Positions 1,134 through 57,580 of a stretch of DNA of 64,000 bases are shown here, in pieces; position 1 is the stretch's first letter, and each line of letters starts with the position of its first letter. The position numbers were made by a program, and so were the translations under genes. The stretch spans positions 487,001 to 551,000 of the forward strand of contig CAJNDT010003546.1 in assembly GCA_905221615.1 (NCBI GenBank), read 5' to 3'. Source of the DNA: Symbiodinium sp. CCMP2592 (Eukaryota > Sar > Dinophyceae > Suessiales > Symbiodiniaceae). A model generated the notes under the pieces. It was not told where the DNA came from, searched no databases, and saw only the letters and a list, made by a program, of their open reading frames with translations.

Positions 1134-1360
1134 ACACTAGCTAGCGTATCCTCCCGCCACCTCCCACTACACCTCCGGGAGTACGTAGCAAGCCTAGCTA
1201 AAGCTAACTGGCTTCACGAAGTAGCACGGACAACACGAACTTCTCTCTTTTTAGCGTTGTGGCGAAGTCCCGCGTTAGCCCGGAGAAGAACTCTAGCCTT
1301 TGGCTAGCTAATCTCCTTGCGCAGCCGTAGGGCTACCAGGGACCTAGCTTACGGGCCTTC
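1134..1360 (-). other. 3' non-coding end of the YR element
   Basis: Follows the Pol stop. It is rich in TAGC and CTAGCTA-like clusters (1137-1145, 1195-1210, 1300-1315). I could not identify terminal repeats by eye. Upstream of 1130 the signal stops abruptly. Confidence 0.4.
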
Positions 1361-1663
1361 TTAGCGAACCTTCGGCTCTCCGGTCCTCTTCCTCACTCCT
1401 AGCTCCTGGAAGTAGCTAGGCGAGTGTTCGAGGAGACGGCCCAGCACGCGCCACTCTAGCTTTTCCCCCTCCAGGCTCACCCTGAAGTCCGGGGAGAAAC
1501 TAGCGAAGTTCTCGTTCGTGAGGTCGTCCGCTAGCTGGTTCAGATCCCTGCGGATCCACTGTAGCTGAAGCTCACAGTTCTTAGCGGAGAGTTCCTCTGC
1601 TAGCTCCATCAACACCAAGGTCGACGGGAACTTCGTCGTCATAGCCTTCTTCAGTAGCGCCTC
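1361..1663 (-). CDS. RNase H domain, 3' exon and end of Pol
   Basis: Resumes RNase H with KAMTTKFPSTLVLMELAEEL and the last catalytic Asp region RDLNQLADDLTNENF, then a short charged tail ending at 1361. Together with the 5' exon it gives all four acidic positions expected of RNase H (D-E-D-D). The ATG near 1702 lies in the intron and is not a true start. Confidence 0.7.
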   Translation of the reverse strand, partial: EALLKKAMTTKFPSTLVLMELAEELSAKNCELQLQWIRRDLNQLADDLTNENFASFSPDFRVSLEGEKLEWRVLGRLLEHSPSYFQELGVRKRTGEPKVR

Positions 1664-2370
1664 TTTTTGCTTGTTGCGAACTCGCGACGCCCGTGTAAGC
1701 ACGAACGACGTGTCAGAAGTCTCAGGTCAGAGCAAGAGCAATTGAACTGCACACCAAAAGCTCAAGTTAACGCTACGTGATGCAAGCCCCGCGGTAGCCG
1801 AAGTCCGACGCGGAGTCTAGCACTCGGGTGAAGAACTTTCCTATGTGCAGTCAGTGTACAAGCACAACCGGAAAGCGTCAAAACTACAGAGTCAACGACA
1901 GAAGGACTCGGGGTGTACAAAGGGAGCCTTCTACGGACCAAGGCAAAGCCTTATCCTAGACGGACAAGCTTTACAGATGCAGACGCATCAAGGTGCTTAC
2001 AGACCTTTAAAAGGAGCCAAAAGCACGAATGCAGCTCCAAAATCGCAGTTGCCTTACGATCAGATGTACAGAGTCTGAGTGAAGGCAAGGGCGTAAGCCC
2101 CAAACGTATTTACACTGTACACGAAGCAAGCAGTCAGCGTTCACGACGTCGTCTGAACTCAGGAGTCCTCGCAGCAGCCCAACCAGCCGCCGGCCACAGC
2201 AGCTCCAGGAAGCAGCGCAGCAGACCACCACAGCAGCCGTCGCGAGTTTTCACTTGGAGAGGTCTCCAGCAGCCTTCAAGCGCTCAAGTAGTACTCACCA
2301 AAGGCGTGCAGCCGGAAGAGCACGAAACCACAAGCGCAAGCGGTTGGGAAAACCTCTTCAGTAGCGCCTC
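1664..2370 (-). other. 707-bp intron or insertion inside RNase H
   Basis: Bounded by a 16-bp direct repeat TCTTCAGTAGCGCCTC at 1648-1663 and 2355-2370. Removing one repeat copy plus the intervening DNA (707 bp) changes phase by exactly the amount needed to join the two RNase H frames. One possible junction gives a GC-AG intron (sense GCGCTACTG at the 5' end, AAAAAGAG at the 3' end), a dinoflagellate non-canonical type. TAGC is nearly absent inside (two sites, near 1793 and 1817, none from 1820 to 2360), unlike the surrounding element. Confidence 0.65.
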
Positions 2371-3020
2371 GTTGGACTGGTTGTCGGTGTAGCCACGGAT
2401 GGCCACCTTGGAGGTCTTCTTAGCGTCCCCTTCCGGGACCCAGAGCCTCACACCAACCAGAGTAGCCAGTAGCTCCAGCGCGGCTATGACCTTGTTCGGG
2501 TCCCCCTTAGCGAAGGCCCAGGGGGCCCATTCCTTCTTCACCTCTAGCGAGAACCAGGGACCGTGGCAGCCGTCCACTAGCTCGAGGAAGCCCCCAATCC
2601 AGGCACGTCCATTCTCGGCTTTAGCATCGGTGTAAAAGGAGAGTGGTGCAGCACCGTCCAATAGCGAGGCTGGCTTCTGGAGACGGCCTCCTGCTTCCAG
2701 GCGGTCTGCTAGCCAACCACAGAGGACGCGAATCATCGTGGGTAGTGTGAGGAGCCCCAGCTTCCCCTGGATAGCCGAGGACCAGGCGTGTAGCGGTCCC
2801 AGGAAGGGGCGCTCCCAGTCTAGCGCCATTAGCCAGTCGGTTCTCTTCTGAGACAGGCCTAGCCTCCAGGTGGAGTACTCCGTTTCCATGCCTAGCCACT
2901 CCACCCGAAATCCCCCCCTCGTCTTGGCCCATTTGAAGGGGTACCCAAGACTAGCGAGGAAGAGATAGCTTAGCGGGATCCCCATGCGTCCTCTAGCCCC
3001 TCGGCCCCAAGGACTCGAGG
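2356..3020 (-). CDS. RT thumb and RNase H domain, 5' exon
   Basis: Continues the polymerase after the +1 break (GARGRMGIPLSYLFLASLG, then GYPFKWAKTRGGF). RNase H follows: first catalytic Asp in SFYTDAKAENGRAWIGG, Glu in ALELLATLVGVRLW, and second Asp in GYTDNQSNEALL. The domain breaks at EALLK, where a 16-bp sequence is repeated 707 bp away and the remaining RNase H resumes. RNase H removes the RNA template after minus-strand synthesis. Confidence 0.75.
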
Positions 3021-3850
3021 TCGTCGGCATAGAGAAGCATGTCTAGCGGGAACGATGGCCCTAGTCGAAGCCCACACGCCGCTATGCGGGTCCACCAGTA
3101 GCTCGCACATGATAGCCCGAAGGTCCCCACCAGATTGACGTAAACCGTCTGGCTGTCGGGGTCCCCCGGTGTAGCTTCCTCGGTGTCGATCTGACACCCT
3201 AGGTAGCCATGCTCTCCTTCGGCATGCTTGTAGCGTCGGTGAGCTTTAGCGATGTCGCCCACCACGGAGAAGGCCACCTCGTTAGCGTCGATGTGCTCCC
3301 GAAGTAGCTGCTTCTTCTCCCTAGCTCCTGGGGCCCGGATCTTGTCCCTGCACTTAATGCGGTGGTTGACCCGGACCCCGTGGGTAGCGTCGTGGATCAT
3401 CCTCTTCTTTCCACTAGCTTCGTCCTCAACGATGACAGCTAGCGCGGCGATGGCTCGATGCTCGCCATAGCGGGCTTTGAACTCGCCTAGCGTCATCTTG
3501 GCCATGAGGCCCTCCGCCACGTCCTCTTCGAACTTCTCCCTAGCGAACTCGCGGTACTCCTCCACCGAGGAGTAGTTCGGGACCCAGGCTAGCGCCGCCT
3601 CCCAAGGAGCGTTCTCCAAGGGCTCGAAGACGTGGGGAGTGCGTGGTAGCGGGTCCCTCACCCCCACCGGTAGCCCCTCCTCGGCCTGGAGGAGGAAGTC
3701 CCTGTCGGGATCGCCGGCCGCGGTCAGTAGCGCCCGGATGAGGCGGAGGTATAGCGGCTGCCCCGAGACCACCGGGTCTCCCAGGTCATTAGCTTCCAAC
3801 CACTCTTTCCAGATCAAGCGTAGCTGCTCCTGGAGATCTTCGGAGCTAGC
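2993..3850 (-). CDS. Reverse transcriptase of the YR retrotransposon
   Basis: RNA-dependent DNA polymerase. The frame reads in from the G8 run near 3865 (SSEDLQEQLRLIWKEWLEAND), so the ATG at 3817 is probably internal. In order: a fingers segment with basic residues (KKRMIHDATHGVRVNHRIKC), motif A around the Asp of SVVGDIAKAHRR, motif B region FGLSCASYWWTRIAA, and motif C YADD (codons at 3020-3031). The catalytic aspartates are therefore present. The frame stops 7 codons after YADD; a +1 shift within CCTTGGGGCCGAGGGG continues into thumb and RNase H in the next entry. Closest recollected relatives are DIRS/Ngaro RTs. Confidence 0.8.
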   Translation of the reverse strand, partial: ASSEDLQEQLRLIWKEWLEANDLGDPVVSGQPLYLRLIRALLTAAGDPDRDFLLQAEEGLPVGVRDPLPRTPHVFEPLENAPWEAALAWVPNYSSVEEYREFAREKFEEDVAEGLMAKMTLGEFKARYGEHRAIAALAVIVEDEASGKKRMIHDATHGVRVNHRIKCRDKIRAPGAREKKQLLREHIDANEVAFSVVGDIAKAHRRYKHAEGEHGYLGCQIDTEEATPGDPDSQTVYVNLVGTFGLSCASYWWTRIAACGLRLGPSFPLDMLLYADDLESLGPRG

Positions 3851-4966
3851 TAGGGCACAGCCCTTGGCCCCCCCCGGCAGCCATGCGGAAGGCTTCCTTC
3901 TCTAGCTCCGCCTCCGAACCCACCTTAGCGAGGATCACCTCCATCATCTTCTCCCGTAGCCAGTCCCAGTTGGGACCCTCGGCGTAGCTGCGAGTAGCGT
4001 GGGGCCAGCGTCCTGGAGAGCAGAGGCCCCCACCATCATGGTAGCTCTTGTTGCCACCTAGCTGTTGGCAGGTCCTTGGTGGTCCTGAACCCCCTAGCAC
4101 TCGCGGGCCCTCCGGCTCGCAGGTCGGGAAGGTCTCGGGTAGCGGGCACTCCGGCCTAGCGCCACCCCCCTCCCCCTGGGCAGCGGTAGCAGGGTGCTGG
4201 CAGGAGTCCAGAATCAGGGTAGCCAGCCACTGGCACATCCTAGCGGGCCACTTTTCGGAACCTGAGGTCTTGAAGGGGCCCTTAGCGGGGCGCTTGAACA
4301 TGCGGCCCAGAGTAGCAGCAGAAGGCAGCGGTCCTGTGTAGCAGCCCTTTTTGTCATAGCACGGCAGGCCTTCGTGTACAAAGTCGGGCATAGCAGAAGA
4401 GCACTTTAGCAGCAGCCGTGTCGGCTTAGCGTATGGCGTACCAAAACTAGCCTGGTGGAAGGCCACGGTCCGTAGCCCCTTTTTCAGAAGGTCGGCTACG
4501 AGGTTAGCGACCTCGAAGCTGAAATCCGCAAAGATGTTGCCCAGTATAGCGCGGTCCCTCTCAGCAGGTGTTAGCGTTTCCAGCCCCCGGGGACATTCAT
4601 AGCTTCGCACGGGGCGGGGCCCCTGAAAGTTAGCCCAGGGAGCTCTGGAGAAGCTAGCGCAAGGTGGAGAGAGCACGACCGCATCGAATTCCTTGGTAGC
4701 TATACGGTCAAATAGCCTTGCCGAATCTTGGGCTGGCTGAGGTCGTATTTAGCGTGCCGCAGAAGATCGACACACTCGACTCGCACATCTAGCCCGAGTT
4801 CGGCGGCTAGCTGGTGCAAGCACTGCGCCACATCTAGCCGGCGCGATGTACCAGAGAACAGGTAAAGCACTCGTAGCGGCTGTGTAAGCGTAGCGGCCGC
4901 CGGGGCTGGCGTAGCATCCCCCCTGGGGGGGGTCACAGGCACTGAGGGCGCGGCCGCCGTAGCGGG
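3846..4966 (-). CDS. C5-cytosine-methyltransferase-like domain of the retrotransposon
   Basis: The N-terminal part has a motif I-like glycine loop, RVLYLFSGTSRR, resembling the DLFSG loop that binds S-adenosylmethionine, followed by alternating strand/helix sequence with an acidic strand end (VRVECVDLL). After a one-base break in a T run near 4710, the frame continues DRIATKEFDAVVLSPPCASFSR. SPPC matches motif IV of C5 DNA methyltransferases, where Cys is the nucleophile. A downstream segment (PARMCQWLATLIL) and a Cys-rich loop complete the domain. Retrotransposon-borne methyltransferases are reported from dinoflagellates and charophytes, and DIRS elements often carry a Dam-like domain; here the motifs favour the C5 type. 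Whether it is active is unknown. It ends at a TAG by a G8 run; a +1 shift there leads directly into the RT. Confidence 0.6.
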
Positions 4967-4969
4967 TCA
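4967..4969 (-). other. In-frame UGA between Gag and Pol (candidate readthrough stop)
   Basis: Codons read TCC AAC TGA CCC GCT, and the frame stays open on both sides: zinc knuckle before, methyltransferase-like domain after. UGA followed by C is known as the leakiest stop context in eukaryotes. No readthrough structure was assessed. Confidence 0.45.
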
Positions 4970-5465
4970 GTTGGAGGGCTTGTCCTCCTTAGCGGTCTCC
5001 GTCTGCATCTTTGTGGGGCATTGCGTAGCGGGGTGCTTTCCGAAGCATATGCGAGCAGACGTGCTCGAAATGGCACTTGCTGCCATTCTTGCAACCCTTG
5101 GCATTGTAGCGGAAGCAGATGGGCTTCCCTTGCGGGGTGCGATCGACACCCAGACGCTTCTTAGCTTTGCCCCCCTTGGGGGGGGCGTCTTTGCCTTTGC
5201 CCTTCCCCTTGGGGGTCTTAGCAGGCCGCTCCTCTGTCCAGGTCCAGGGCTGTGGCCGTTTAGCATGGAGGGCTAGCGGCGTAGTGAAGTGCGTCTCCTT
5301 CACGCTAGCGTCCTTGTAGGCCAGGACTAGCGCAGCGCCGAAGGAATAGCCGGCCGTGGCCATGACTTTGTACGCATGCTTCCTGATAGCGTGCTCGTAG
5401 CTGAGCACCATGGCCACGGGGGCACTAGCGACCCCGAGTCGGCACTGGACCGGAGACCATAGCAA
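4967..5465 (-). CDS. Gag-like protein, zinc-finger C-terminal part
   Basis: Continues the Gag frame and ends with nucleic-acid-binding motifs. A Lys/Gly/Pro basic stretch (TPKGKGKGKDAPPKGGKAKK) precedes a CCCH zinc finger with spacing C-x7-C-x5-C-x3-H (CFRYNAKGCKNGSKCHFEH). One base out of frame immediately after is a retroviral-type knuckle, CRICFGKHPATQC (C-x2-C-x3-H-x4-C). Joining them requires one frame break near 5055. The knuckle frame ends in TGA at 4967-4969, and that same frame is open on the other side into the methyltransferase-like domain, so the stop may be a readthrough point between Gag and Pol. Confidence 0.6.
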
Positions 5466-6187
5466 TAGTCTCCGAGAAGATAGTCTTTGTAGCGCTCGAA
5501 GAGGGCCATGGTGACATCCTGTAGCTCCTCCCGGTTGGGGTGCCTTAGCTGCATCATAATTAGCGTGTTCTGGAGCACCGTGAGCCGCAGCCGTAGCTGC
5601 TCCGGCCCAGAGGGCGTGGCGGCCCTAGCTCCCCCCTTCTTCATGGATAGCGTGCCATTGCCATTCCAGACGGGCAGTAGCGTGTCGGGGTCCCATTCGT
5701 CCCGGCTGATGACCTCGGTTAGCGGCTCCGCCTGGAACTCGCCAGATTCGAGCTCGCCTAGCTTCTTCTCAATGTACTCCTTAGCGGGAGTCTGCTTGTC
5801 CTCCAGGTCTCCGAACTTAGCGGTGAAGGCCTGACGCATGGCCATGTAGTCGGTAGCGGGGATGGGCTTTGCCCAGTCCCGGACCTCGCTTGTAGCCTCC
5901 GCCTCCGCTTGCCGCTCGGTGCGGGAATTAGCGGTCCTCCATGCGATGGTGACCCCCGCGGCCTGAGCGCGGCTAGCGAGCGAGGTGGACGGCTCAATTG
6001 CAAAGCTGTCCTTTAGCATCTTCTTGAGGTCCGCCTCATCTGTCGCCGAGGCTGCAAATTTAGCGACGGTATCAATACCGTTGGAAAAGAGCTCGGATTG
6101 GATAGCATCCGAGACTTTATGCTGCACTAGCAGGAATCGAAGCTCGCTGCTTCCGAGGGCTAGCTTCTTCGCCAGAGCCTCTGCCAT
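5327..6187 (-). CDS. Gag-like protein, N-terminal part
   Basis: Likely the nucleic-acid-packaging protein of the element. The ATG at 6187 (MAEALAKKLALGSSEL) is preferred; the frame is open slightly further without an ATG. The N-terminal half is helical (LRFLLVQHKVSDAIQSELF, a SAM-like or capsid-like helical domain), followed by a linker and a conserved-looking segment ending ERYKDYLLGDYCYGL. About 55 codons before the stop, a one-base break in a GGGG run (near 5435) shifts the natural continuation to the next entry (GVASAPVAMVLSYEHA). Absence of protease fits YR elements. Confidence 0.55.
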   Translation of the reverse strand: MAEALAKKLALGSSELRFLLVQHKVSDAIQSELFSNGIDTVAKFAASATDEADLKKMLKDSFAIEPSTSLASRAQAAGVTIAWRTANSRTERQAEAEATSEVRDWAKPIPATDYMAMRQAFTAKFGDLEDKQTPAKEYIEKKLGELESGEFQAEPLTEVISRDEWDPDTLLPVWNGNGTLSMKKGGARAATPSGPEQLRLRLTVLQNTLIMMQLRHPNREELQDVTMALFERYKDYLLGDYCYGLRSSADSGSLVPPWPWCSATSTLSGSMRTKSWPRPAIPSALR

Positions 6188-6199
6188 GGTAGCAGGCAC

Positions 6200-6612
6200 G
6201 ACGGGCCCTACGCCACCCTAAGGAAAAACTTTTCAAGGGAAAAATTCCTGCTAGCACATTGGGGAAAAGCTCCTAGCGTGAGAGTGTGTGCGGGGAGTGC
6301 CAGTCGATAGCTTTCGCTGAAAGGGGTCGCTGCAGCAGAGAGCGGCCCTAGCAGCCCCACCGACCCCGGCCCCCCCCCCCAGTACTCTCGACACTCTCTC
6401 GCTCTAGCCTTCCCTTCTTTCTGGCTGCCGACATGTGTGTAGCATGACTGTAGCGTGCACACACTGGCAACTGTAGCAAGGGACGACCCTGACTTTTGCT
6501 GCGGCTAGCGGTCGGCAGCAGAGGGCGCTGCAAGGGTAGCCGCGTGCAAGGACAAAAGTAGCGGGTGCAGGTAGCGAGGCCGGGGCCTGTAGCGAGGCAG
6601 GGGCTGCCCTTT
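6200..6612 (-). other. Non-coding spacer of the YR element
   Basis: No frame worth calling. TAGC continues at high density (13 in 6241-6600 by hand count). This is the cleanest evidence that the signal does not depend on coding. Confidence 0.6.
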
Positions 6613-7150
6613 TTAGCGGCCGCCCCAGTCCTCCCCGCGGCTCCACTGCTTGCACCCATCACAGCAGTGAGTAGCGTGGTCGTCGCACTTGAACCACATC
6701 CGCCTGCAGGCTCTTAGCGAACAGACCTCGCAGGTCGTAGCGCACCTGAAAATACAGGCGTTAGCGTCCCAGTGGCCTAGGGAGTAGCGGCAGCGTCCAG
6801 GCTGGTACTGCGTATAGCAGCTTGGCAATAGCATGGCCAGCAACTCGCTAGCGCGCTCCCCTTGGGGCGTGTTAGCGGGAGGGTGGGCGTAGCGACACAG
6901 ACATGAGTGCCACGTCTTCCCGCCCTAGCGAGTAGAGGTGCTCTCCACTGTGGATAGCGTTCTTCATTAGCGTGTTGTCGGCACCCTTGCCGTAGCGGGG
7001 GTTGGGCCCCTTGCCTTTCCCCTTCTCGTAGCGCTGGTCCCAGGAACCCAGCGGCCACAGATCGCGGTCAATAGCGGACCACGAGAGCTCGAGGTACCAG
7101 TAGCTCTTCCCTTTGGGAAGGCTGTTAGCGTGGGCCCCCGCGGGGGGGCC
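6613..7150 (-). CDS. Broken Cys-rich reading frames downstream of the coiled-coil gene
   Basis: Two well-formed but broken frames. The first (about 7150-6872) reads through a Gly/Lys-rich segment (YEKGKGKGPNPRYGKG) and an ordered stretch (NAIHSGEHLYSLGRED) to a TAA at 6872-6874. The second (about 6930-6613) is Cys-rich, with pairs such as CEVC and CDGC and a segment WFKCDDHATHCCDGCKQW typical of zinc-binding folds. A one-base shift near the GGGCGGG run (about 6925) would join them. They probably form the C-terminal part of the coiled-coil protein above. Family not recognised. Confidence 0.4.
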
Positions 7151-8215
7151 TGGCTCGCCCCTTTAGCGCCACACTCACGGGTGTGCCCTTAGCGTCCCGG
7201 ACGTTATCGGGCATGCCCCCCGCCTGGTCGATAGCGCGGTCCATCTGGAGCTCGCGGCGTAGCAACTCCAGGTAGCGGTCCGGGTCCTCGAATAGCGTGC
7301 TCCACGTGTAGTCGAACACATTGATTGTAGCGGCCCCTCTCGCCTCGGCCACGGCCAGGGCTAGCGGCCCGAGGGAACGAGGGGCTAGCGGCCCTCCCGA
7401 TCTCCATGAATTTTTAGCGGCCGACTCCGCCGGCGTAGGGTCCATGTTAGCAGGTGCCGCGGTGGCGGCGGCAGTAGCGGCCACCGGGGCAGGGTCGGTA
7501 CTGCTGGTAGCGGTGGCGTCCCTGGTAGCGGCCTCCTCTGCGGCCTGCAGGGAGGCTTTGCTAGCGGCCACCGCCTGCTGGTACTCCAGCTCGGCGGCCT
7601 GCTCCTCCTTAGCGAGCCGCTCCGCGGCCTCCTTCCGCTTTTGCTCTAGCGCGGCCGCTGCGACTCTCTGGTCGTGCTCGGCCTTTTTCTCTAGCGCGAG
7701 CTTAGCTGCTATGGCCTCCGCCTCCTTGCGGGCCTTGGCCTTCGCAGCGCTAGCGGCCGCGTTGGCTGCGGCGAGCTGGTCTAGCTGGGCCTTTGCTGCT
7801 GCAGCGGCGGCCTCTGTAGCGGCGAACCTCTGAGTGAGGCCCGCGGACATAGCGGCATCCAAGCTAGCGATGTCCTCCTGGGACAGGTCGGCCCAGCTAG
7901 TAGCTGACAGAACTCGCCGCTCCATCAGGTTAGCGGGGCTCTGTTGGCGGACCCCGGCCCCTATCCACTTCCTGGGCGGGGACTCTTTGTCTAGCATCTC
8001 GATCGCCTCGTGGGACATAGCGATCAGCTCTTGTAGCAGAGGCTTGTCAGCCCCTCGGTGCACTCTGACGGCCGAAACCGTAGCGCCTTCCGCAGACCGC
8101 GGAGGGTCTCCGGGAGGTAGTCTCCACTAGCGGGCTCCTCGGCCGTAGCGGGGCCATCTGCTGGCCCTGCGCCCTTGGGCGATGTAGCTCTGGCATCCTT
8201 GCCTTTTCCTCCCAT
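7125..8215 (-). CDS. Ala-rich coiled-coil protein, probable structural (Gag-like) protein
   Basis: Likely a structural protein of the element. The ATG at 8215 (MGGKGKDARATSPKG) is followed by about 45 codons, then a one-base break near 8065-8080 moves the frame to the main stretch ending at 7125. The main part contains a long Ala/Glu/Lys-rich heptad-like region (for example KARKEAEAIAAKLALEKKAEH), predicted to be a strong coiled coil that could drive particle assembly. A Thr/Ala/Pro-rich segment and a short ordered region near the C terminus (NVFDYTWSTLFEDPDRYLELL) follow. It stops at a TAA made from a GCTA motif; a one-base shift in the preceding G/C run would read on into the next entry. 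I do not recognise a named family. Confidence 0.5.
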
Positions 8216-8621
8216 AGCGGCGCGTGAAACGGCTAAAGAAAATCTAGCTACCCCAAGGTAGCGAAGCCGAAGGCTACCCGTGGGAGGAGGTTTAGCACAG
8301 TCACTGGCTCCTGCGCCTAGCTCCTTTGTAGCCCTGTTGCCTCGCGGGTGTAAAGCCCGCACGTTTCGTAGCGCCTTCCTTCGCTCCTTAGCTCCTTCCT
8401 GCAGGACGGACCTAGCGCAAGCACTGGCTCCTCACCTAGCTCCTGTGTTCCCTGGGTGGCCAGAAGAGGGGTCTCCCGGCCCCGGTTTCCTAGCGCCTGC
8501 CTTCGCTCCTTGCTCCTCCTGCAAGACACTGGCGGAACACGAAAGCACAACACAGGCACACAGCAAGTGACATGTAGCAAGAACGTGGTTCCCTCCACTC
8601 TCTTCTTTCTCCCGCTCTCCC

Positions 8622-8692
8622 CCCCCCCCCTTACGCCCGAAGGCCCCCCCCCCCCCCCCCCCCCCCCACCCCCCCCCACCCACCCACAGCAC
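8622..8692. repeat. Poly-C tract
   Basis: C-rich tract with uninterrupted runs of about 10 and 21 C followed by CCCCCCCACC-type sequence, next to the GA repeat. It forms a polypurine/polypyrimidine block with it. Confidence 0.85.
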
Positions 8693-8721
8693 ACCCCTTT
8701 AAAGTCTAGCGGCGTTTCAAG

Positions 8722-8919
<198 letters not shown>

Positions 8920-9006
8920 CAGAGAGGGGAGAACAGTGGGTTCCGACCTAGCAGCAATTCTAGCCTTGGTGCGAGTGCGAGTTCGGCGGCTTAGCACGCC
9001 CTGCGC

Positions 9007-9398
9007 TCAAGGATGACTGCTAGCGGACCCCGGTGCGTGATCCTCTGGGGCCTCGTCATCTTCCGAGTTAGCGAGCGATCCTTCGCTAGCGTCTCCTTCG
9101 GAGATAGCCCCTTGGTTCGGCCAGCATAGCTTGCACACATGTGTGTACTCGTGCGGCTCCGGAACCGAATCAAGAATCCTAGCGTTGCGGAAAGCACGTC
9201 GCTTCCCCATCCAACAACCTGTAGCGCCCGCTTCGTGCAGGCGGAAAATGGCACCTGGGACCTCTACGATTACATAGCTGCCCTGGCTGCGGTCGGGAAC
9301 CCTGGCCTGCTTCTTAGCGGGCCGTTCCACGACCTCTGCAGAGGCCTCGGAGCTACTCCCGGCCACTAGCGGTTCCGCGGGCTCGTCCGGTTTTTTTC
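9007..9398 (-). CDS. -1 frame C-terminal extension of the recombinase
   Basis: An open frame in the -1 phase that begins inside the recombinase gene and runs about 130 codons. It has no ATG near its start, so it is best read as a frameshift extension. After a charged linker (residues like KPDEPAEPLVAGSSS) there is a compact domain with a CWMGKRRAF stretch and a paired-cysteine end (YTHVCKLCWP), followed by an acidic, Asp/Glu/Ser-rich tail. The Cys pair suggests metal binding or a small zinc fold, but I cannot name the family. A similar Cys-containing tail after a recombinase is, from memory, common in dinoflagellate sequences; that needs a database search. Confidence 0.55.
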
Positions 9399-11309
9399 GG
9401 GAACCTCTAGCTCTTCCGCCTCGGTCGGGACTCCTAGCAGGCCCTCCATCCAGATCTTCCGCAGCCTCGCCGCCATATGGATAGCCTGGCTGTGGGTTAG
9501 CTTGGCCCTTTCTTCCAGCCAGGGCTCGAGGTCCGCGGCGATTTCACGCTCGTCGAGCGCCTCGTAGCGGTCGTCCCCCCTAGCTGTCTTAGCGAAGAGA
9601 GCTTGGAGACGGGACACCCTACCCGCAAAAGATCTAGCGTACACGTCGGACCCCTCGGGTTTCCAACGCCCTAGCAGATCCTTGTCTTGCGGGGGGATCT
9701 CCTTTAGCGCCAAACCTGTTGGTAGCACCGAGCGCTCACTGTGCTCCGTCCAATAGCCCTGGACCTCCCGTGGGTAGCCCATGATAGCCAGCAGCCCCGC
9801 GGTTGCCACCATAGCGTCCGCATAGGTAGCCATCTTCTTCTCCAGTTGCCCCGCCCGGCCCAGCCGCGGCATGAGGTAATCCCGGGCGTAGTTAGCGTGG
9901 GCCTTGAGGAGATCAAAGCCGGTCACCAGCCAGCTCTTAGCGACCAGAAAGGCGTGCTCTGACACCACGACCGGTAACTCCTTGACCCTCCTCGTAGCGC
10001 CGGAAGTCTTGGTCTTCCGGAGGATGGTGGTGAGCCGCCCCTCCACCATCAATAGCTCGGCCGGCAGGATAGCCTGAAGGTCCGACCATCTTAGCGTGGC
10101 CCAGACCTTGACCAACTTAGCCCAGGCCCAGATCCGCCAGCCGGCTGCCAGAGCGGGGTTAATGACTACGAGCTCTAGCTGCACCAGCATGTAGACGGGG
10201 TAGCGGGGTGCTCTCTTGATCAATGGGGCTCCCTCCGCTAGCTGCTCCACTATGCTGTCCTTAGCGGCCCAGACCAGGCGACCAAAGGTGGTCCTTAGCT
10301 CCACCGGAAAATCGGCCACCTTCTCCATCCAGGAGATAGCTTTAAGAATAGCTTCAGGGACCGAACGGCCACAGGGTTCATCACTCCTAGCGAGGAGGTA
10401 ATCCACCAGGTCCGCGGCGGTGCCCGGGGGCGGCCTGAGCTTAGCTGCGTGGAGCCATTGGCGCCACTGCCTGTAGTAGCTCAGGTAGCGCTTCAAAGTA
10501 GAAGCCCGTGTCTTCCCCGGAAGCAACATAGCTGCCCTCACGGGGTCCAGACTCCCGTGCAGCTTAGCGAGAACAGGGGCGTGTATCTCTAGCAGCTCTT
10601 CACGGAGCTTCCTTGCCCAAACCTCTAGCAGTCGCTCCTCTCTAGCCGCACTGATCGTGCTGGGCTGTAGCGTCTTTCGATTCCGCTCCCCGGGGGGAGG
10701 TCTTAGCGGCACCGGTGGCTGATGCACCGCGTCTTCGACCTCTTCCCTTGGTGCAGGTAGCGGTGGCATCCGGGCTCTCCAGGTGATATCATCCTGGAAG
10801 TAGCCGTGCACCCTCTGATAGACCGTAGCTTCCTGTCGCGCTTCCTGCAGCCAACAGTAGACGCCATCCCATAGCCACGGCTGGTATGGAATACCTAGCT
10901 CTCGAGCTAGCTGCTTGGCGACATCCTCCGCGTCGTCTAGGTCCACCACTGCTAGCTCCAAGACCCCAAACCCCTGGCTGGAGAGATGCCGGTAGGCCCT
11001 GTCTAGCGTGCGCCTACGTTCCTGTTGGACCGTAGCCTGCGCCTCTAGCTCTGCCTCCATCTCCCAGCCCTCGAACAGCACTCCCGTCTCTTCGGGCTGC
11101 GGGTCGCTAGCTGGGGTCTGCGGGACCCACGAGGGTACCTCCCCGGAAGGAGCCCCCGCGGTATCGTCCTCCCCTAGCGTGGGGACCTCGGTGGGACACG
11201 AAGCACTTAGCGGGGGCGGGGAATCCCCAACCACAGTAGCGCAGTCAGCGGCCGTAGCTGCTGCACCATCTGGCGTGGTCGGCGCCAAGGTAGCGTCGCT
11301 GTCCGACAT
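9366..11309 (-). CDS. Tyrosine recombinase (integrase) of the YR retrotransposon
   Basis: A DNA strand-exchange enzyme expected to integrate the circular cDNA of the element. The ATG at 11309 (MSDSDATLAP) is chosen because the upstream part of the frame looks non-coding; the product is 647 residues. The first ~190 residues are Pro/Glu-rich and acidic. A SAM-like core-binding domain follows (ASTLKRYLSYYRQWRQWL, near residue 270). The catalytic domain carries the Arg I box LRWSDL (Arg407), the beta-hairpin Lys region LRKTKTSG, the box II pattern HSER (His523, Arg526) and the nucleophile in DVYARSF (Tyr557). The R-K-HxxR-Y set is therefore complete. The frame ends in TAG at 9366, but a slippery heptamer 23 bases earlier would carry a fraction of ribosomes into the next entry. 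Codon choice makes GCTA unusually often, in all three phases. Confidence 0.8.
   Translation of the reverse strand: MSDSDATLAPTTPDGAAATAADCATVVGDSPPPLSASCPTEVPTLGEDDTAGAPSGEVPSWVPQTPASDPQPEETGVLFEGWEMEAELEAQATVQQERRRTLDRAYRHLSSQGFGVLELAVVDLDDAEDVAKQLARELGIPYQPWLWDGVYCWLQEARQEATVYQRVHGYFQDDITWRARMPPLPAPREEVEDAVHQPPVPLRPPPGERNRKTLQPSTISAAREERLLEVWARKLREELLEIHAPVLAKLHGSLDPVRAAMLLPGKTRASTLKRYLSYYRQWRQWLHAAKLRPPPGTAADLVDYLLARSDEPCGRSVPEAILKAISWMEKVADFPVELRTTFGRLVWAAKDSIVEQLAEGAPLIKRAPRYPVYMLVQLELVVINPALAAGWRIWAWAKLVKVWATLRWSDLQAILPAELLMVEGRLTTILRKTKTSGATRRVKELPVVVSEHAFLVAKSWLVTGFDLLKAHANYARDYLMPRLGRAGQLEKKMATYADAMVATAGLLAIMGYPREVQGYWTEHSERSVLPTGLALKEIPPQDKDLLGRWKPEGSDVYARSFAGRVSRLQALFAKTARGDDRYEALDEREIAADLEPWLEERAKLTHSQAIHMAARLRKIWMEGLLGVPTEAEELEVPEKNRTSPRNR
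9390..9396 (-). other. Canonical -1 ribosomal frameshift heptamer A AAA AAC
   Basis: Read on the minus strand, recombinase codons GAA AAA AAC contain the heptamer A AAA AAC in the correct phase (X XXY YYZ). A -1 slip makes CCG the next codon, which enters the 9007-9398 open frame. Short hairpins are possible just downstream: GGAG-TAG-CTCC and CCTC-TGCA-GAGG. The zero-frame stop is 8 codons after the site. Confidence 0.6.
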
Positions 11310-11555
11310 GGCGGCGCACCCTAAAGCAGGGCTAATTAGCCCTGTTCCCCTTCCTACCCCCACTCGAAATTTGCCCCCCAATAGCTGGGGGCCTTTCAGC
11401 ACAATGGCCACGGCGTAGCGCTGCTTCACCGGCCATGTGCAGTCACTCTAGCAAACAGACAAGCTTCGTTCTGTTTAGCTTCAGAGGAAAACCCCTTCGA
11501 CGTTTTCTAGCGAAACACCTTCGATGTTTCCCAAAGGGATACTAGCGCTAGCATA
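11310..11555 (-). other. 5' leader of the YR element
   Basis: Region upstream of the recombinase ATG. It contains a short near-repeat, CCCCTTCGACGTTT at 11491-11504 and CACCTTCGATGTTT at 11517-11530, and the last TAGC sites (11507, 11543, 11549). It presumably holds the promoter; none is identifiable. Confidence 0.3.
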
Positions 11556-11649
11556 CACTGTCGTACCTCGTCCCTCGGCACGAGTGCGAAACTCCGAAGC
11601 CTAAGCCTGTGGCTGCACAGTTTGAACGCTGGACGCTCCTCCACTGCAT

Positions 11650-21759: not shown

Positions 21760-22235
21760 GCAGTCAATCTTGCTAATCTTTGTCTGCAAGGTTTTGGGAA
21801 ATTTGTCGGAAGGGTAGCAAGATTGCAGACAAGCTTGCTTCGCTCGCAAGGGGGGCGGGGGTGGGGGGCAAGATTTCACGGTACAATCTTGCTCTAGTGT
21901 GCACGATGGGGGGGACCGCGTTCTTGCAATCTTGGGACGCTTGAAGCACTTGAACCACTTGTACTGCTTGCGCCACTTGAGCCACTTGGGCCATTTGGGC
22001 CATCTCTCTTCGTGAAATGATGCAAGTGGCGCAAGTGGTTCAAGTGCCGCAAGTGGTGCAAGTGGTCCCCGAAACGTGCACATTAGCAAGATTGCAAAAT
22101 GTACAACCTTACATGCAATCGAACCGGCAAGAAAAAATGACAGGATTAGCAAAATCGTGTCCCAAAAAATTGTCAAGATTTGCAAGATTCACCAAGATGG
22201 GCAAAATGGGCAAAATCTTGGTCCCAAAGAGCGCA
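21760..22235. repeat. CAAG/CTTG-rich region with inverted 9-bp arrays
   Basis: Lies between two TAG microsatellites. Left array of CACTTGNNC units (21931-22003) and right array of GCAAGTGGN units (22021-22066) are inverted around a short spacer. GCAAGATTGCA-type phrases recur on both sides. Confidence 0.75.
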
Positions 22236-22238
22236 CTC

Positions 22239-22239
<1 letters not shown>

Positions 22240-22303
<64 letters not shown>

Positions 22304-22790
22304 CAGCAGCAGTAGCAGTAGCACTAGCTGGAGTAGTAGTGGTAGTAGTAGTAGTAGTTGTAGGGGTAGCAGTCACAGTAGCAGTAGCAGTAGCAGCAGC
22401 AGCAGCAGTAGAAGTAGAATTAGATATTAGAAGTAGAAGTAGCAGTAGTAGTAGCAGTAGTAGTGGTAGTAGTAGCAGCAGTCGTAGGAGTAGCAGCAGT
22501 GGAGTAGCAGTAGTAGCAGCAGCAGTAGCAGTGGGAACGGTAGCGGCAGCAGTAGCGGTAGCGGTAGCGGTAGCGGTAGCGGTAGCGGTAGTTGTAGCAG
22601 CAGCAGCAGTTGCAGTAGCAGCAGTAGCAGTAACAGTGGCAGTAGCAGCAGCAGCAGCAGCAGCAGTAGCAGGTAGTAGTAGCAGTAGCAATACCAGCAG
22701 TAGCAGTAGCAGCACTGGCAATAGCAGCAGTAGTAGCCGCACTAGTACTAGTACTAGTATTGATAGTAGTCGTAGTAGTCGTCGTCGTCA
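22240..22790. repeat. (TAG)n/(AGC)n microsatellite
   Basis: About 550 bases of TAG, AGC and GTAGCG trinucleotides with hexanucleotide substructure (GGTAGC repeated at 22549-22590). Confidence 0.95.
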
Positions 22791-22835
22791 TGGTGGTAGT
22801 GAGGCGATGCTGCTCCCGGTGCCAGTGCTAGGAAG

Positions 22836-22876
22836 ACGAGGAGGAGGAGGAGGAGGAGGAGGAGGAGGAGGAGGAG
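22836..22876. repeat. (GAG)n microsatellite
   Basis: Fourteen GAG-type trinucleotides in a row. Confidence 0.9.
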
Positions 22877-23039
22877 CACCAGCTGCGGAAACCCTGAAAA
22901 ACTGCCGGCAGCACCAGTTTTCTCGCGAAAGCGGCTCTCTCACGGACCTCGACACTGGGCTGCGCACATCGAGCGCTGAAAGTTCCGATGTCATAACACC
23001 CCCTTGAAAAAAAAGCACACACTCTAGACAGTGGCCCCT

Positions 23040-47389: not shown

Positions 47390-47750
47390 TCATTTGCGGG
47401 AAGGGGCTGTGGGGGGGTCTGCGGGGAGTTGTGTTCGACGCTTCATCTGATCATGTGTGGCTGTTGCGTTTAGAGTTTGGAAGTTCTCTGGCGGGGTGTG
47501 AAGCTTGGTTTGCGATTCGCTAGCGACTCGAGCAGCCAGACAACGATGACTGCCCAAGCTGGCAAAACGCAAAATCCCGAAGTCCAAAACCTTCCAGACA
47601 CCGACCATGGAACCTGAAGCCGACATGTTGAGTCTATCGTGAACCATCGGACCGTCAGAGGTAAAACAGTGGCCTAAATAAGTACCTATACTACTGTAGG
47701 GCTCAACACTAGTATGGCCTTCTTCTTCTTCGCACGGTGATAAGTCCCAG

Positions 47751-50156
47751 TCAGAACGTACCGCTAGCACAAGACGAATTCGAAGTGAAACGGACAACGA
47801 GTGACGAGCTCGAGCCAGCCGCAGCCGCCGAGCTAACGAGCCACTCAAACAAGGCACCTCCCTGATCGAATGAAAGATCAAACGAGAGGGCCGTGAAACG
47901 CCCGAGACGGGCAAACTCCAAAGCGGCCGAAATCCAAGTGAGGGTCGAAGAAATCCATCTCTGGTGCGGTCGGAGCGCCTTCAAAGAGCAGGAAGGAAAC
48001 TCCCAAAACAGCAGGGAGGGAAGAGGAGGAGCTGGGAAGCAAACAACCAAGGACGAGAAAGTAGAGAGATCAACCTCCGCGGACTCAAAGCCAACATGAG
48101 TCCAAACGGAGGGCCTCACGGGAAACGCCCTATCCAAGTTCAAGTCCGAGGAAGTCCCCGCCAACAGCGCAGACCCTTGCACGTGTTCGACCGAAAGAAA
48201 GAAGGGCTCAATGAGTGGCCTGAAAGCATAGTCAGCCACTCCAACATTGTCAGCATCCTTTTTGGCAGCAGGAGTTTTATCACAAAGCAAATCAACCTGC
48301 CAACAACTGAGGACGTCAACAGCCCATTCCTTGACATCGCTATCATCCAATTCGGAAACCCAAACAACAAGGGTTTGACGCAGGACGGGAAAAGGCTCAA
48401 TGAAACTCGCAACGGTGTCGAAGATGTGCTCATCAGACTCAAAGCACGTGGCACGCAAAGCGACGAGAAGCTCCCGAGAGTAGTCAGCGATAAGCTCGGG
48501 AACTGAACCAATTTGACCCCCGGGTTGGAGAAGCGCCTGCGCAGGACCCTCGGGAAGACTCAAGGCGGGGAGAAGACCAGGTTTGTCCAAGGCCACGGCC
48601 TGACAACACCGTGGGGAAATCTTGAGGTGCTGCACCAACCGTCTATGTTGAGGAAAGACGGAGCCGCAGGCGCGGCAGCGCACGCCGACCGCATAGCGCC
48701 TGTGGTGCGCACGGTACTTATGCGACTTCGCCGCATGCGCCGCCCAGGACTGAACGTCGCAGAAAGCAACCTTACACAACACACAGCCGTGCTGAAGGCA
48801 ATCAGTTGTGGCCAGGGGCTTGGGGGCGGGGCGCCAGCAACTACGGAAACACGCCTCCAAATCCGCGCGCGCGGCATGTCGAGCTCCATGCCATGCGACA
48901 GCCCTCTTGATAAGGCCTTTCCAACGACCAGGAAAGCTTTTGATCAAGTCCCTCCATAGGCTCCAGTTAGCCAAGACATCTCCTAGCTCTGTGGTACAGA
49001 CTATCGCCTCTTGGAACCAGGCAATGGCAGACCACATAGCTCGCAGGGCTCTGGGAGCATTTTGCAGCAGAGCCCATGCCTCGTCCGGAGCAGCACACAC
49101 CAGTTGTGAGAGGAAACGAAGCCGTTCGACGTGCAGAAGCTCGGCAGGGGTCGGAAGACCCAACAAGCTCACAATGCGCCATTTGCAGACATGTTGATCC
49201 TCATGATGCGGGATTCGCAGCAGCTTGCGGTACATGGCAAACACACCCTGCTCGAAAAGCCTCCAGCCTCCACAACATAATTCAGGCCAAGCGCCTGCCC
49301 CGGCCAAAAGGACCGAGAGCACATGAACTCTGAAAAGGGATGCTCGCTTACGAAGGTGCATCCTGCAAGAGCAGAACACAGACTTCTGTCCTTCTCGGAA
49401 AGCAGCGCGAGCCGCGCCGAGCTTGGAACGGATCTCCGGGAGCATGGAGCCGCTGTAAGACAAGCTTGCCCCCAGGTGTTTATAGGTCGATATGGCATCG
49501 AGCGAAACAGGGGAACTGTGTTCCAAAAGAACGGCTATTTTCCCTTTATCCCGGGTGAAGATCTGAGTCCGAACTGCTTTTGCCCCAACACCTGATGGGC
49601 AGATCATAGCTGCGGTCTTTCGCGGGCCAATATTTGCGGATAGACCGTGCCCAGCGAGTGTGTCAAGCGTGACACCGGTGATCCGTGTTACCACCCTCGG
49701 AAGCTCGGCTGCATGCGAGCACGTGGCACACGTTGCTAGGTCGTCCGCGTACACAATGTCCTGCACCTTGAGTTTGGGAAGCCCACGTGCAACAGGACAT
49801 GAAACCAGCTCCCTAGAGCCGGTCCAGCAGACCTCCGGGCACCAACCTTGTTCACGGAAGTCCCCTCGTCGGGCCAGCACGCGTAGGAACAGGATCGAGA
49901 ACATGGCATCGGCCAGGCATCCTCCTGGCCGCGTGCCCCTACTCGTCTGCACCAAGCAAGGGTCGCCGGCAAGAGCGAACCAGGTGTGAGCATGGAATTC
50001 ACGAGACATAACCTGTAAAAGGCTATGACCCTGCACGGATTGCAAGGCTGGCTCATCCTGCACGTACGAGCACAAAATTTGCATATCCTCATCTCGGAGC
50101 CCCAAGGTACGAACAACCTCTTCCAGGGGTGCATCTCCCAGTCCCCCGCCGACCAC
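47751..50156 (-). CDS. LINE reverse transcriptase (palm, thumb) and C2H2 zinc fingers
   Basis: Contains motif B (TSRGTRPGGCLADAMFSILF) and motif C IVYADDLATC (codons near 49740-49755), followed by the thumb (THKHLGASLSYSG-like region, with ISTYKHLGASL present). A helical domain follows, then two zinc-finger units near residues 455-515: CVLCKVAFCDVQSWAAH and CRACGSVFPQHRRLVQHL. C-terminal fingers commonly bind nucleic acid in LINE ORF2. The C terminus is Ser/Ala-rich and ends at 47751. From residue ~700 a second frame (47914-47390) is also open and could hold the true end. Confidence 0.75.
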   Translation of the reverse strand: MVGGGLGDAPLEEVVRTLGLRDEDMQILCSYVQDEPALQSVQGHSLLQVMSREFHAHTWFALAGDPCLVQTSRGTRPGGCLADAMFSILFLRVLARRGDFREQGWCPEVCWTGSRELVSCPVARGLPKLKVQDIVYADDLATCATCSHAAELPRVVTRITGVTLDTLAGHGLSANIGPRKTAAMICPSGVGAKAVRTQIFTRDKGKIAVLLEHSSPVSLDAISTYKHLGASLSYSGSMLPEIRSKLGAARAAFREGQKSVFCSCRMHLRKRASLFRVHVLSVLLAGAGAWPELCCGGWRLFEQGVFAMYRKLLRIPHHEDQHVCKWRIVSLLGLPTPAELLHVERLRFLSQLVCAAPDEAWALLQNAPRALRAMWSAIAWFQEAIVCTTELGDVLANWSLWRDLIKSFPGRWKGLIKRAVAWHGARHAARADLEACFRSCWRPAPKPLATTDCLQHGCVLCKVAFCDVQSWAAHAAKSHKYRAHHRRYAVGVRCRACGSVFPQHRRLVQHLKISPRCCQAVALDKPGLLPALSLPEGPAQALLQPGGQIGSVPELIADYSRELLVALRATCFESDEHIFDTVASFIEPFPVLRQTLVVWVSELDDSDVKEWAVDVLSCWQVDLLCDKTPAAKKDADNVGVADYAFRPLIEPFFLSVEHVQGSALLAGTSSDLNLDRAFPVRPSVWTHVGFESAEVDLSTFSSLVVCFPAPPLPSLLFWEFPSCSLKALRPHQRWISSTLTWISAALEFARLGRFTALSFDLSFDQGGALFEWLVSSAAAAGSSSSLVVRFTSNSSCASGTF

Positions 50157-50800
50157 AGCTTCTCTGACTCTCTGACCACAGAGTAATAAGCCGAAATCAG
50201 GTCAAGGAAAAGGATACACGCGGGCTTTCGCTTGGACCTAGTATGCTCCAAGAAATTCCGGCTGCAGAAAGCCCCGAAAACATACGACGAGCCCTTACGT
50301 CCCCCCAACAAAAGGGGACTTGCATGCAGCTCAACCTCGCCGACCACGAGCCTTCGGAGGGTTTTATGCAGTATCTTCTCGAAAATAGACTGTGCCAGTA
50401 TCCCCCGCTGGGACTGGAGGGAAAGCTTATCCGGCACACCGGGTTTATCGATGTGGAATAAAACTCCTCCTTTTAGCCCCACCGGTTCTGACGAATGTAT
50501 CATCGCCTTCAACACAATAGGCCAGAAGAGCACCGCAAGCTGTCCCGGGCACTGCTTGCAGAGCGCGGGTGGAATGCAGTCTTGTCCGGCAGCCTTGTGC
50601 GGATTGACCTGCCGAAAGGCCTCAAGCACCTGAAGGAGATCAGGCATGTCGTCAACTTGCAGGGACTCTGCGGGAGGTATTGAACGCTGACGTGCCAAGC
50701 AGGAGGTGGCGAGCGTGTCTGGCTGCACCACCCGGCCGCCTTCCATGTTTGCAAAATGTTGCCGCCACTGCTCAATGACTTCAGATTCAGATTGACACAT
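50150..50800 (-). CDS. LINE reverse transcriptase, fingers and palm start
   Basis: RT begins here: FRQVNPHKAAGQDCIPPALC (the K-A-x-G-x-D block of LINE RT), a long loop, LSLQSQRGILAQSIFEKILH (RT fingers/palm), and motif A ACILFLDLISAYYSV with the catalytic Asp. The frame breaks just after motif A (VVRE), where AVVGGGLGDAPLEEV follows in the -1 frame at 50156. Confidence 0.7.
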
Positions 50801-51387
50801 AGTGCCGTCTGCCTTCCTAAGCTGAGGGAGGGGTGCAGGTCCCGTACGCCTATACTTTTGGGCCTAAGTAGGCGCTTCAAAGCGCACTGGGCCTGGGCCC
50901 CAGCAGAACCATCAACCTCGTCAGCGAGCGCCTCGAGATATAGCCGCTTGTCCAACCGACACCTTCTGCGCAATACGCGGCCAAGAACACCGATGCGCAT
51001 AGTGAAAAGGCCAATAGAGAGACGAAGCTGACCCAACCATGGCCCGGAGAACAAGGTTTCGAAGGCAGGTCCACCACGCCAAGCAATCCAAGCACAGCGC
51101 AGGCGTGCTAGGCGTAACCCGGTCAGACGATTACGTAAGTCATGGCGCAGAACAGACACAGCCTGGTGAATCTCAGCCGCATCCGCAGAAAGGAAGGCAG
51201 CCTTCAGGCGTCGGGCCTGCAACGGAAAAGCCCCGGATAACTCCTTAAACAAGTAGTCGACCAACTTGGAGGCATGATCATTTACATTTTCCGTCCAAGG
51301 GGCCCTGGGGGCTCCGCAAATGGTTTCGCGGTTATCCGGCTGCAACAAGGCAGCCGCATCAATACGAGGCTGAGAGGGGGAATCCAT
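50791..51387 (-). CDS. LINE ORF2 linker between endonuclease and RT
   Basis: Continues ORF2 after a one-base break in ATTCCCCCTC. A helical, Arg/Leu/Ala-rich linker (RLTGLRLARLRCAWIAWRGG, RLYLEALADEVDGSAGAQAQ) typical of the stretch before a LINE RT. The next break is near 50790. Confidence 0.5.
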
Positions 51388-55733: not shown

Positions 55734-57580
55734 GGACCGTGATCACAAAACCGTGCTCCAACTGCAAGTCCTGCTCGTACGGCCACGGGTCATCCCGCCC
55801 GGGAAGGAAGAAACGGAATTGATCCACGGCAGCGCTAATGAGAGGCAGTACGAAGCTCTCAATATCATCGTAGCTGATGAGGGCTGGCAGCACAGTAGCA
55901 AAATAAGCCCCACCAACATGCGATAAGTCAAGCACGCACGCCACGTGCCCATGAGGCCCAAGTTGCGAAACCACGCTGGGAAACGCCAAGACCATTGCAT
56001 ACCCTCGGTGCCGTTGTGGCTTGAGTGCAACAACCGAATCAGCCGTGCCATTGCATAGCGCAGCTCCCAGATCAAGCACGGCGGAGAGGAGGGCATCAAT
56101 TCCTAACCCTCTATCAAAACGCAAAGCCCAATGCGTGGTTTGATAGTGTGGGGCCATGACGATAACCCCCAACCAATCCGAAATGGCCTCACTGTCCTCG
56201 ACCCCGTCAGGCAAGGGTAATCTTAGAAATGGCGGCGGGACGACGGCATCATTATGCCCCGAAGCACTGTATCGGGTCGGCCAAACCAGTGCATCAACAT
56301 GTCTGACCGCTTGCGGGGAAGCATCAGCTGTCGGGAGCAGTGCTGGCAAAGAGCTCCCCTCAACCACAAAACCTGCAGCTGCAGCCGCATCCTCGTAGGT
56401 GGGCAGAAGAGCATCCGGCTCCAAGTCGCCACCGGTGTGCATAGCGGCAGTCCCCGGCACGGCCGTGAGGAGGGACAGAGCAGCCCCCGAGCAACAAGAG
56501 GAGAAGACACCGAGATCCCCAAAGCGTCCCAAGTCCTCAAGCAAGCAGAGAAGGAGTTGGTACCAGAAAGAAAAGCGCCGCGCCTGGTTTCGGGCGGAGG
56601 TGCGAAATCCCTTCCGCCCTGCCCTGCTGGGGTGTCGCTGTATAGGGTGCAATGCGGTCCCGGTCGGATGTGTGATCGAACCCACACAAGCAATGCACAA
56701 GGCTGGAACGACGACCAAGGAATTCTGCACTTCCCTGCGAATTGGTCGCTTCCTGCAACCCTGCATTCCCCAATAGCAGATCGAAATCAACATCCATAAC
56801 ATCAGAAGGCAACCACAGGAGGAAGCCTGGTGTGCAAGCCAACAGGTAAAAGGCGAGGCGTGGGAATGGGCCGGATGTCTGGTGTGCCCCCCAAGAGGTT
56901 CAACGAACCCCCACCACAACGAAAGGAAACCAAGGCTGGCAAGAGCCGAGTATCCAGTCACCGCTGGAAGACCTGTGTGCCCACCGAGTTGCGATGCAAG
57001 GAGAGCCCGGAGAGCAGCCAGAGTGTCGGACAAACCTGCAAAACTGTCAAGGCAGAGGCCGGCAGCCCAGCCAACACCAGCAACCCAGACAAGGTAAGTC
57101 CAAGCAAGAACCCACTGCAAGACACCTTGCCATATAGCCAAGCCTGTTCGAAAACTCCTGCAAGCAAGGCCCCAAGCAGGACGCAGCAAACAGGCACCAA
57201 AACACACCGCAGACGACCACACCGACGAGATATGAAACCGGAGAAAGGGCAGCCAAAAGTCCAGGCGCCTTGGCATTCTCCGACCTCCTCATACGTATAC
57301 AAGGCAGAACGGGAAAAGGTGACTGGCTGCATAGTGGCATCAGAGCTATGTACACCCTGTACACAAGCCTCAAAAGGACGCCCTACGCGCTCATAAGTCA
57401 AGCGCTCTTGGAATGTGGCTGACCAGAGCATACCGCCATCAAGGCACGACCTCCATACTAACCTCGGGCCCATGTGAGGCAGTACGAAGGAAGTCCCGTC
57501 AAGGAGGCGCTCATGAATCAGCCACAAACCTCCGCTTTCCCGAAACCTCAAGTGCCGGTGCCAACCGTGGGTGGCTGCCC
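55543..57580 (-). CDS. LINE middle region with hydrophobic segments (frame-shifted)
   Basis: Between ORF1 and the long ORF2 frame the reading continues in two frames. About 57580-57000 gives LRFRESGGLWLIHERLLDGT and SATFQERLTYERVGRPFEAC. About 57276-55543 has a Trp/Leu/Ala-rich hydrophobic zone (YLVWVAGVGWAAGLCL, LASLGFLSLWWGFVEPLGG), then a soluble part (YEDAAAAAGFVVEGSSLPAL; DWLGVIVMAPHYQTTHWALR). Apparent membrane segments in a LINE are odd and may mark a protein specific to dinoflagellate LINEs. Which frame is used between 57276 and 56958 is uncertain. Confidence 0.45.

Follow-up and report, generated by a model that had tools for sequence, protein, structure and literature searches.

A spaced, one-strand GCTA word along a dinoflagellate DIRS-type retrotransposon and a candidate element-encoded reader

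The 64,000-nucleotide stretch of DNA analyzed here (the window; contig CAJNDT010003546.1 of Symbiodinium sp. CCMP2592, positions 487,001 to 551,000) contains a DIRS-type (tyrosine-recombinase) retrotransposon at 1134..11587, with the minus strand as its coding strand and with ends that were set by comparing other copies. Along this element the tetranucleotide GCTA recurs at 298 sites on the sense strand (1141..11552, minus; TAGC when read on the plus strand) with a mean gap of about 32 nt, an arrangement that we call a comb. We are close to certain that the word is selected, spaced and one-strand. Whether the comb as a whole is explained as a dispersed, family-specific recognition code on one strand, read by a family-tuned reader, we regard as evenly balanced.

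A spaced GCTA word on the sense strand

Between 1134 and 11555 the sense strand holds 298 copies of GCTA versus 47 of TAGC, and GCTA is the top tetramer when expectations are derived from the element's own trimers (159.6 expected; z 19). By the same trimer-based expectation, GCTC, GCTG, GCTT, TCTA, CCTA and ACTA are depleted. The initial annotation had noticed the motif in its plus-strand form through hand counts of 21 TAGC in 2362-2994, 21 in 4381-4980 and 19 in 9361-9960; the latter two are exact, and the first should read 20. Its statements that GCTA is absent from 9361-9960 and TAGC from 48001-48600 were confirmed by count, the latter segment having a single plus-strand GCTA. Elsewhere in the window TAGC and GCTA each occur 0-9 times per kb, with the exception of a CAGTAG simple repeat at 22238-22712, at which a second local TAGC peak (35 in 22001-23000) also lies.

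The sites are also spaced more evenly than random placement would produce, as had been suspected from the sequence. With gaps longer than 150 nt set aside, the coefficient of variation (CV) of the gaps is 0.50, versus 0.87 ± 0.05 in 2000 random-placement simulations at equal density, none of which gave a value as low. All but four of the 297 gaps are at most 89 nt; these 293 have a mean of 31.9 nt (s.d. 14.0; 5-95% range 11.6-57 nt), and the four long gaps correspond to a CT tract, a G tract and a nested insertion (two). Successive gaps are uncorrelated (rho -0.04), and no strict or helical periodicity was seen in pair distances judged by eye. A chance origin is ruled out by these gap simulations and by the shuffle tests described below. 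A looser 3-kb scan of the window revealed, simple repeats aside, no other word of comparable excess and regularity.

The comb runs through coding and non-coding DNA alike. In the open reading frame (ORF) stretches examined, GCTA falls in all three codon phases (90, 29 and 79 sites), as had been claimed, and the non-coding segment 6241-6600, previously described as equally dense, holds 13 TAGC and 2 GCTA on the plus strand. When three near-complete copies of the element are divided into open stretches of at least 150 codons and the remainder, with the CT and G tracts excluded, the densities inside and outside are equal: one site per 31.7 and 29.7 nt in L017, per 31.8 and 32.2 nt in L020, and per 31.5 and 33.3 nt in L016. 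In these same copies the element's repeats A and B are covered as well, with the first site at nt 36 of A and the last 10 nt before the end of B.

Synonymous codon choices show how the word is written. Leu is encoded by CTA at 79 of 131 positions after G versus 4 of 94 after other bases, and Ala is encoded by GCT at 90 of 123 positions before A versus 23 of 175 before other bases; thus, which base of the word is adjusted depends on the reading frame. Together these two contexts offer 254 opportunities to form GCTA, of which 169 are used, and use rises steeply with the distance to the nearest other GCTA. In bins that omit one of the 254 sites, the word is formed at 1/18 opportunities at less than 6 nt, 6/27 at 6-10 nt, 16/40 at 10-15 nt, 31/43 at 15-20 nt, 57/66 at 20-30 nt and 57/59 at 30-60 nt (trend p 4e-24). 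These data show a spacing rule, in which a new site is written if the last one lies more than about 20-30 nt away and is avoided within about 10 nt.

Shuffles that preserve both the protein and its codon usage, in which 4- and 5-letter words were ranked if expected at least twice, place GCTA at the top in the family designated F1 (179 versus 79.2; z 17.1), where TAGC is not clearly enriched (22 versus 16.7; z 1.5). An ongoing GCTA-making mutation process is ruled out, because new variants among eight resident copies create GCTA in 12 of 785 cases, near the random expectation of 1.2%. In these copies, variation is slightly lower in GCTA columns (3.6%) than in the rest (4.7%). An apparent A-to-G excess at GCTA sites arose from L013 and L015, whose 3′ ends differ. 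Similarly, a regional effect of the insertion site is ruled out, since the nested insertion and the flanks of the element lack the comb. The earlier proposal of a selected short word, as opposed to codon bias, is thus strongly supported by codon context, gap filling and shuffles.

Related words in sister families

Sister loci were sampled as ten 3-kb pieces picked across score groups from 106 reverse transcriptase (RT) matches of a distant homolog, and words with up to two degenerate positions were searched in one copy per family and ranked by z over CV. GCTA ranks first in F1 (L039; L040 is alike, CV 0.45) and also in F2 (L035, and likewise L036, L038 and L041; CV 0.44-0.52). The first-ranked word in F3 (L033, and likewise L034, L037 and L042) is GGMTA, which occurs 65-68 times per 3 kb versus about 6 expected (CV 0.46-0.51). 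When compared with shuffles, GCTA is the top 4- or 5-letter word of F2 (77 versus 35.1; z 9.6) and GGCTA is the top exact word of F3 (47 versus 13.7; z 11.1), where the composite GGMTA, which we added to the ranking, reaches 71 versus 20.3 (z 14.9).

The F3 word is likewise apparent in codon choice. Asp is written GAT at 35 of 41 positions in the context G_A versus 34 of 128 elsewhere, Ile is written ATA at 37 of 39 positions after GG versus 22 of 93 elsewhere, and Ala is written GCT at 56 of 89 positions in the context G_A versus 46 of 186 elsewhere. For Leu, CTA is used at 55 of 68 positions after GG, 32 of 59 after a single G and 10 of 175 after a base other than G. The corresponding Ile choice in F2 is 2 of 21 after GG versus 19 of 50 elsewhere, and F1 has too few such codon sites for comparison (Asp 2, Ile 5). 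Gap filling in F3, pooled over four related copies, amounts to 115/117 opportunities at 30 nt or more, 31/45 at 20-30 nt and 37/75 at less than 20 nt (p 4e-15).

The Pol proteins of the three families are 62-71% identical. Between F1 and F2 (71% protein identity), 32 of 91 F1 sites occupy matching codon positions, and between F1 and F3 the count is 15 of 89, with 2.8 expected by chance in each comparison. Because this sharing is only partial, sites turn over while the comb persists. The base preceding GCTA also varies: F1 favors C and, next, A; F2 accepts a broad range; and enrichment in F3 is confined to sites after G.

A comb scan was run with 10,496 exact and one-fold degenerate 4- and 5-letter words in 2.5-kb segments (CV below 0.62; at least 3.5 times expected). 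It covered the window, L009-L042 and L045, and excluded L001-L008, the too-short L043 and L044, N-rich segments and locus ends. Combs were found in these elements only, apart from an AATAT-rich repeat at 6001-8500 of L027, which is the only other regular one-strand word in the scan.

The element, its copies and its relatives

The split repeats and the tyrosine recombinase place the element in the DIRS order. Its repeat arrangement is A-coding-B-A-B: L024 has a complete B-A-B end, L018 follows it as far as its piece reaches, and B leads into the beginning of A in L016, L017 and L020. The window copy reaches no further than the first B repeat (B1), and 11556-11587 is the 32-nt start of repeat A common to all 13 fetched copies. 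The recombinase ORF (687 aa; 9366..11429, minus) has 47 homologs and a Cre-like predicted fold. The best Foldseek match of its AlphaFold model (mean pLDDT 62.5) is Cre (E 2.7e-5; probability 1.00), and every one of its 26 PDB matches at E of 0.001 or below is Cre or a Cre variant, with low target-normalised TM-scores (0.28-0.45) and rmsd values of 16-18 Å in the superpositions. A Pfam search of this protein gave no recombinase match, and seven ORFs of the element and six relatives gave no Pfam match at the curated cut-off.

On the basis of homologs, a Gag-like protein is encoded in two overlapping frames of the window copy (4989..6199, minus; ORFs 5327-6199 and 4989-5465), and an alignment of these homologs places a CCCH zinc finger at 5055..5117 (minus). 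The CCHC-like knuckle after this finger is present in six other copies (...HVCSLCFGKHPATKC) and is not intact in the window copy; F3 has CTKCRGPHSAINC at this knuckle versus CxLCFxKHPAxxC in F1 and F2. A C5-methyltransferase-like domain at 4180..4870 (minus) was recognized by eye from FSG, SPPC and EQP motifs and has no Pfam match; we take FSG and SPPC to be a C5-methyltransferase signature. In F3, all three copies read (L043, L034 and L042) have PPV instead of PPC, which suggests a non-catalytic role for the domain in that family.

The probable RT (2993..3817, minus), with its YADD motif, is supported by alignment and by 267 homologs, 120 of them listed. The RNase H-like region (2355..3030, resuming at about 1300-1660, minus) was assigned from an ORF and from motifs that are presumably RNase H-like. 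Both sets of motifs can be read in the window element and in relatives, and neither gave a Pfam match. In L017, the SPPC, YADD and RNase H-like motifs stand together in one 1048-aa open stretch, with the recombinase motif in a stretch of 731 aa and the CCCH finger in one of 415 aa.

The only long breaks in the comb are a C/G tract plus CT tract (8644..8926) and a nested insertion of 691 bp (1664..2354), neither assigned to a strand. The insertion, with 2 GCTA and 1 TAGC, is without a comb, splits the RNase H-like region and has a perfect 16-bp direct repeat on either side (1648-1663 and 2355-2370). It is missing in 7 of the 13 copies (L016-L020, L023 and L024), which align straight across, and the other six are uncovered or not resolved at this position. 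The insertion is an internal control for the comb.

When a 600-base probe was compared with the 1.098-Gb genome, 40 of 310 candidates were scored matches at 96-100% identity, self included. All 13 copies fetched carry the comb across their matching part, and nine near-complete ones have 279-311 GCTA per 9.9-kb piece. By comparison, seven 10-kb background pieces, two of which contain 2,500 and 5,000 N, have 6-46 GCTA and 11-22 TAGC and no comb. Elsewhere in the window, long ORFs at 47390-58894 (minus) belong to an element earlier called a LINE, in which the comb is absent, and interstitial CCCTAAA/TTTAGGG telomere-like arrays are frequent at many places between 11727 and 61500.

Protein sequences from other species offer an indirect view of the comb; a few of the protein relatives are assigned to Symbiodinium. 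In the 47 recombinase homologs, dipeptides that can be encoded through GCTA (Ala followed by Lys, Met, Thr, Ile or Asn) number 817 versus 430, and the reversed-order control gives 404 versus 432. At positions not shared with the window copy, the counts are 339 versus 202 reversed for all 47 homologs and 104 versus 56 reversed for 13 non-redundant ones. This excess supports, but does not prove, the presence of combs in other species. The 120 listed RT homologs yield 824 versus 553, but the test is not discriminating because the reversed control is raised too (701 versus 559). Twenty distant RT proteins have no such dipeptide signature (89 versus 97), and no relatives were confirmed in the viral and genome contig collections in which they were sought. 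The Symbiodinium genome itself holds several distant gag groups (such as C48, C132, C263 and C400), and one of them, read at the L045 locus, has an altered CCCH finger.

Candidate readers and known systems

The strong one-strand bias points to a reader of single strands, either RNA or cDNA; the use of different words within one genome points to a reader encoded by the element; and the observed spacing points to bound units of about 10-30 nt over the whole molecule. The leading candidate, at a probability we would put just short of even, is the element's own Gag/nucleocapsid. Such a protein would bind single strands with a footprint on the order of 10-30 nt and would coat the sense RNA or single-stranded cDNA over its full length, with its CCCH and CCHC-like fingers recognizing the comb word. 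Each family would then package and protect its own transcript and ignore those of the host and of rival elements. We hold more tentatively, as a possibility of somewhat under one half, that GCTA, GGMTA and perhaps other words in distant gag families are private spaced barcodes that co-evolve with the fingers of their own nucleocapsids. If so, the comb would be a dense coating code by which each element recognizes its own RNA in a crowded nucleus. Among the functions suggested in the initial annotation, an RNA-binding or packaging mark fares best, on indirect evidence, and a mark telling self from host is compatible because a sister family uses a different word.

Several observations weigh against a family-specific code read by Gag. 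At Leu the F3 word does not depend strictly on GG, since CTA is frequent after one G alone. F3 also has a slight excess of the reverse orientation (z 1.1-2.8 for TAKCC in three copies; z 2.4-3.1 for TAGC). GGCTA in F1 and the non-enriched HGCTA in F3 remain spaced from the main words. The idea that the F1 and F3 words are mutually exclusive was therefore dropped, and the words represent shifted preferences as opposed to separate or orthogonal codes. The correlation between word and finger spans three families, F2 and F3 being represented by a single Gag copy apiece, and cannot prove co-evolution. A rough local-folding calculation revealed no hairpin preference of GCTA sites (mean unpaired value 0.23 versus 0.22 overall, with some values falling below zero). 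Finally, 1.1 kb from a distant gag family with a related CCCH Gag (L045) contains 1 GCTA and shows no clear comb. Equal density in unrelated DNA, or absence from related elements, had been named in advance as evidence against the proposal, and the outcome is mixed: combs are absent from the background pieces and from the remainder of the window and present in two sister families, but this distant family shows none in 1.1 kb.

The foremost alternative, which we consider unlikely, is that the word in the transcript is recognized by a host RNA-binding protein, for nuclear export, stability, anti-silencing or protection from premature 3′-end formation, and that each family came to recruit a factor of this kind. 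The same gap-filling statistics and equal densities in and out of frame fit such a reader, and a requirement that no gap exceed about 60-75 nt is what one might expect of a licensing factor. However, no comb is seen in the background pieces or elsewhere in the window, and the word is not the same in a sister family from this genome. A role in reverse transcription, in which RT/RNase H would use the regularly placed words on the sense RNA for priming, pausing or strand transfer, seems distinctly improbable. Coverage of mainly one strand and of the whole element, including repeats A and B, would fit this role, but it does not readily explain why the word differs between families with such similar Pol proteins, and we know of no RT that needs about 300 evenly spaced tetramers.

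A methyltransferase-like protein of the element acting on GCTA was among the original suggestions; in the form in which the C5-methyltransferase-like domain modifies the word and so marks cDNA as self, it now appears very improbable. The domain does sit in the Pol ORF, and cDNA methylation has been proposed for DNMT-bearing Symbiodinium DIRS elements (PMC5890265). A double-strand methylase would accept both orientations, however, and one is strongly enriched while the other is enriched little or not at all; in addition, GGATA words in F3 have no C on the sense strand, and F3 carries PPV in place of PPC. Codon bias or context-dependent mutation (by a deaminase, a RIP-like process or biased repair) could by itself yield raw enrichment, but we give it almost no credence because the chosen base of the word changes with the reading frame, new variants and GCTA columns behave as described above, and neither codon bias nor ordinary mutation can sense how far away the next word lies.

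DIRS elements that carry cytosine methyltransferases have been described in Symbiodinium (PMC5890265). The present element resembles SymbioDIRS-Dnmt3 as described there in its A-coding-B-A-B repeats, its separate recombinase ORF, its dinoflagellate host, and a cytosine-methyltransferase-like domain that shares the Pol ORF with probable RT and RNase H regions. The available portion of that account mentions no repeated short word or spacing, and the Dnmt3 class is putative for our element. Literature searches for this motif or for short words in such elements found nothing relevant among open-licence papers, with most subscription literature outside their scope. To our knowledge, no known system matches a whole-element code that runs through codons and non-coding DNA with a spacing rule and a word that varies between families.

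Chi, KOPS and DNA-uptake sequences are similar in that a strand-biased or recurrent short word is distributed along a replicon. These words are longer and sparser, act on whole-chromosome DNA, and lack a gap-filling rule of about 30 nt. The nearest working analogy is the dispersed packaging signals of RNA viruses, in which many short genome-wide sites are reported to contact the coat protein (PMC6281560, PMC7793301). As in those viruses, a recurrent short motif is under selection along the whole element. Unlike them, the comb belongs to a retrotransposon, comprises about 300 sites at one per 32 nt, obeys a spacing rule that can be measured, and has only a candidate reader. Packaging-signal motifs are typically presented in stem-loops, whereas GCTA sites had no structural context in the rough folding test.

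The comb offers a direct handle on how a retrotransposon protein might pick out its own RNA among thousands, or on how elements are licensed in the dinoflagellate nucleus, and the codon, spacing and family-word results yield precise predictions that binding assays could check cheaply. Should Gag prove to be the reader, the comb would be a relative, at very high density, of the dispersed packaging signals of viruses. Otherwise, the comb would expose an RNA-reading system that is as yet unknown.

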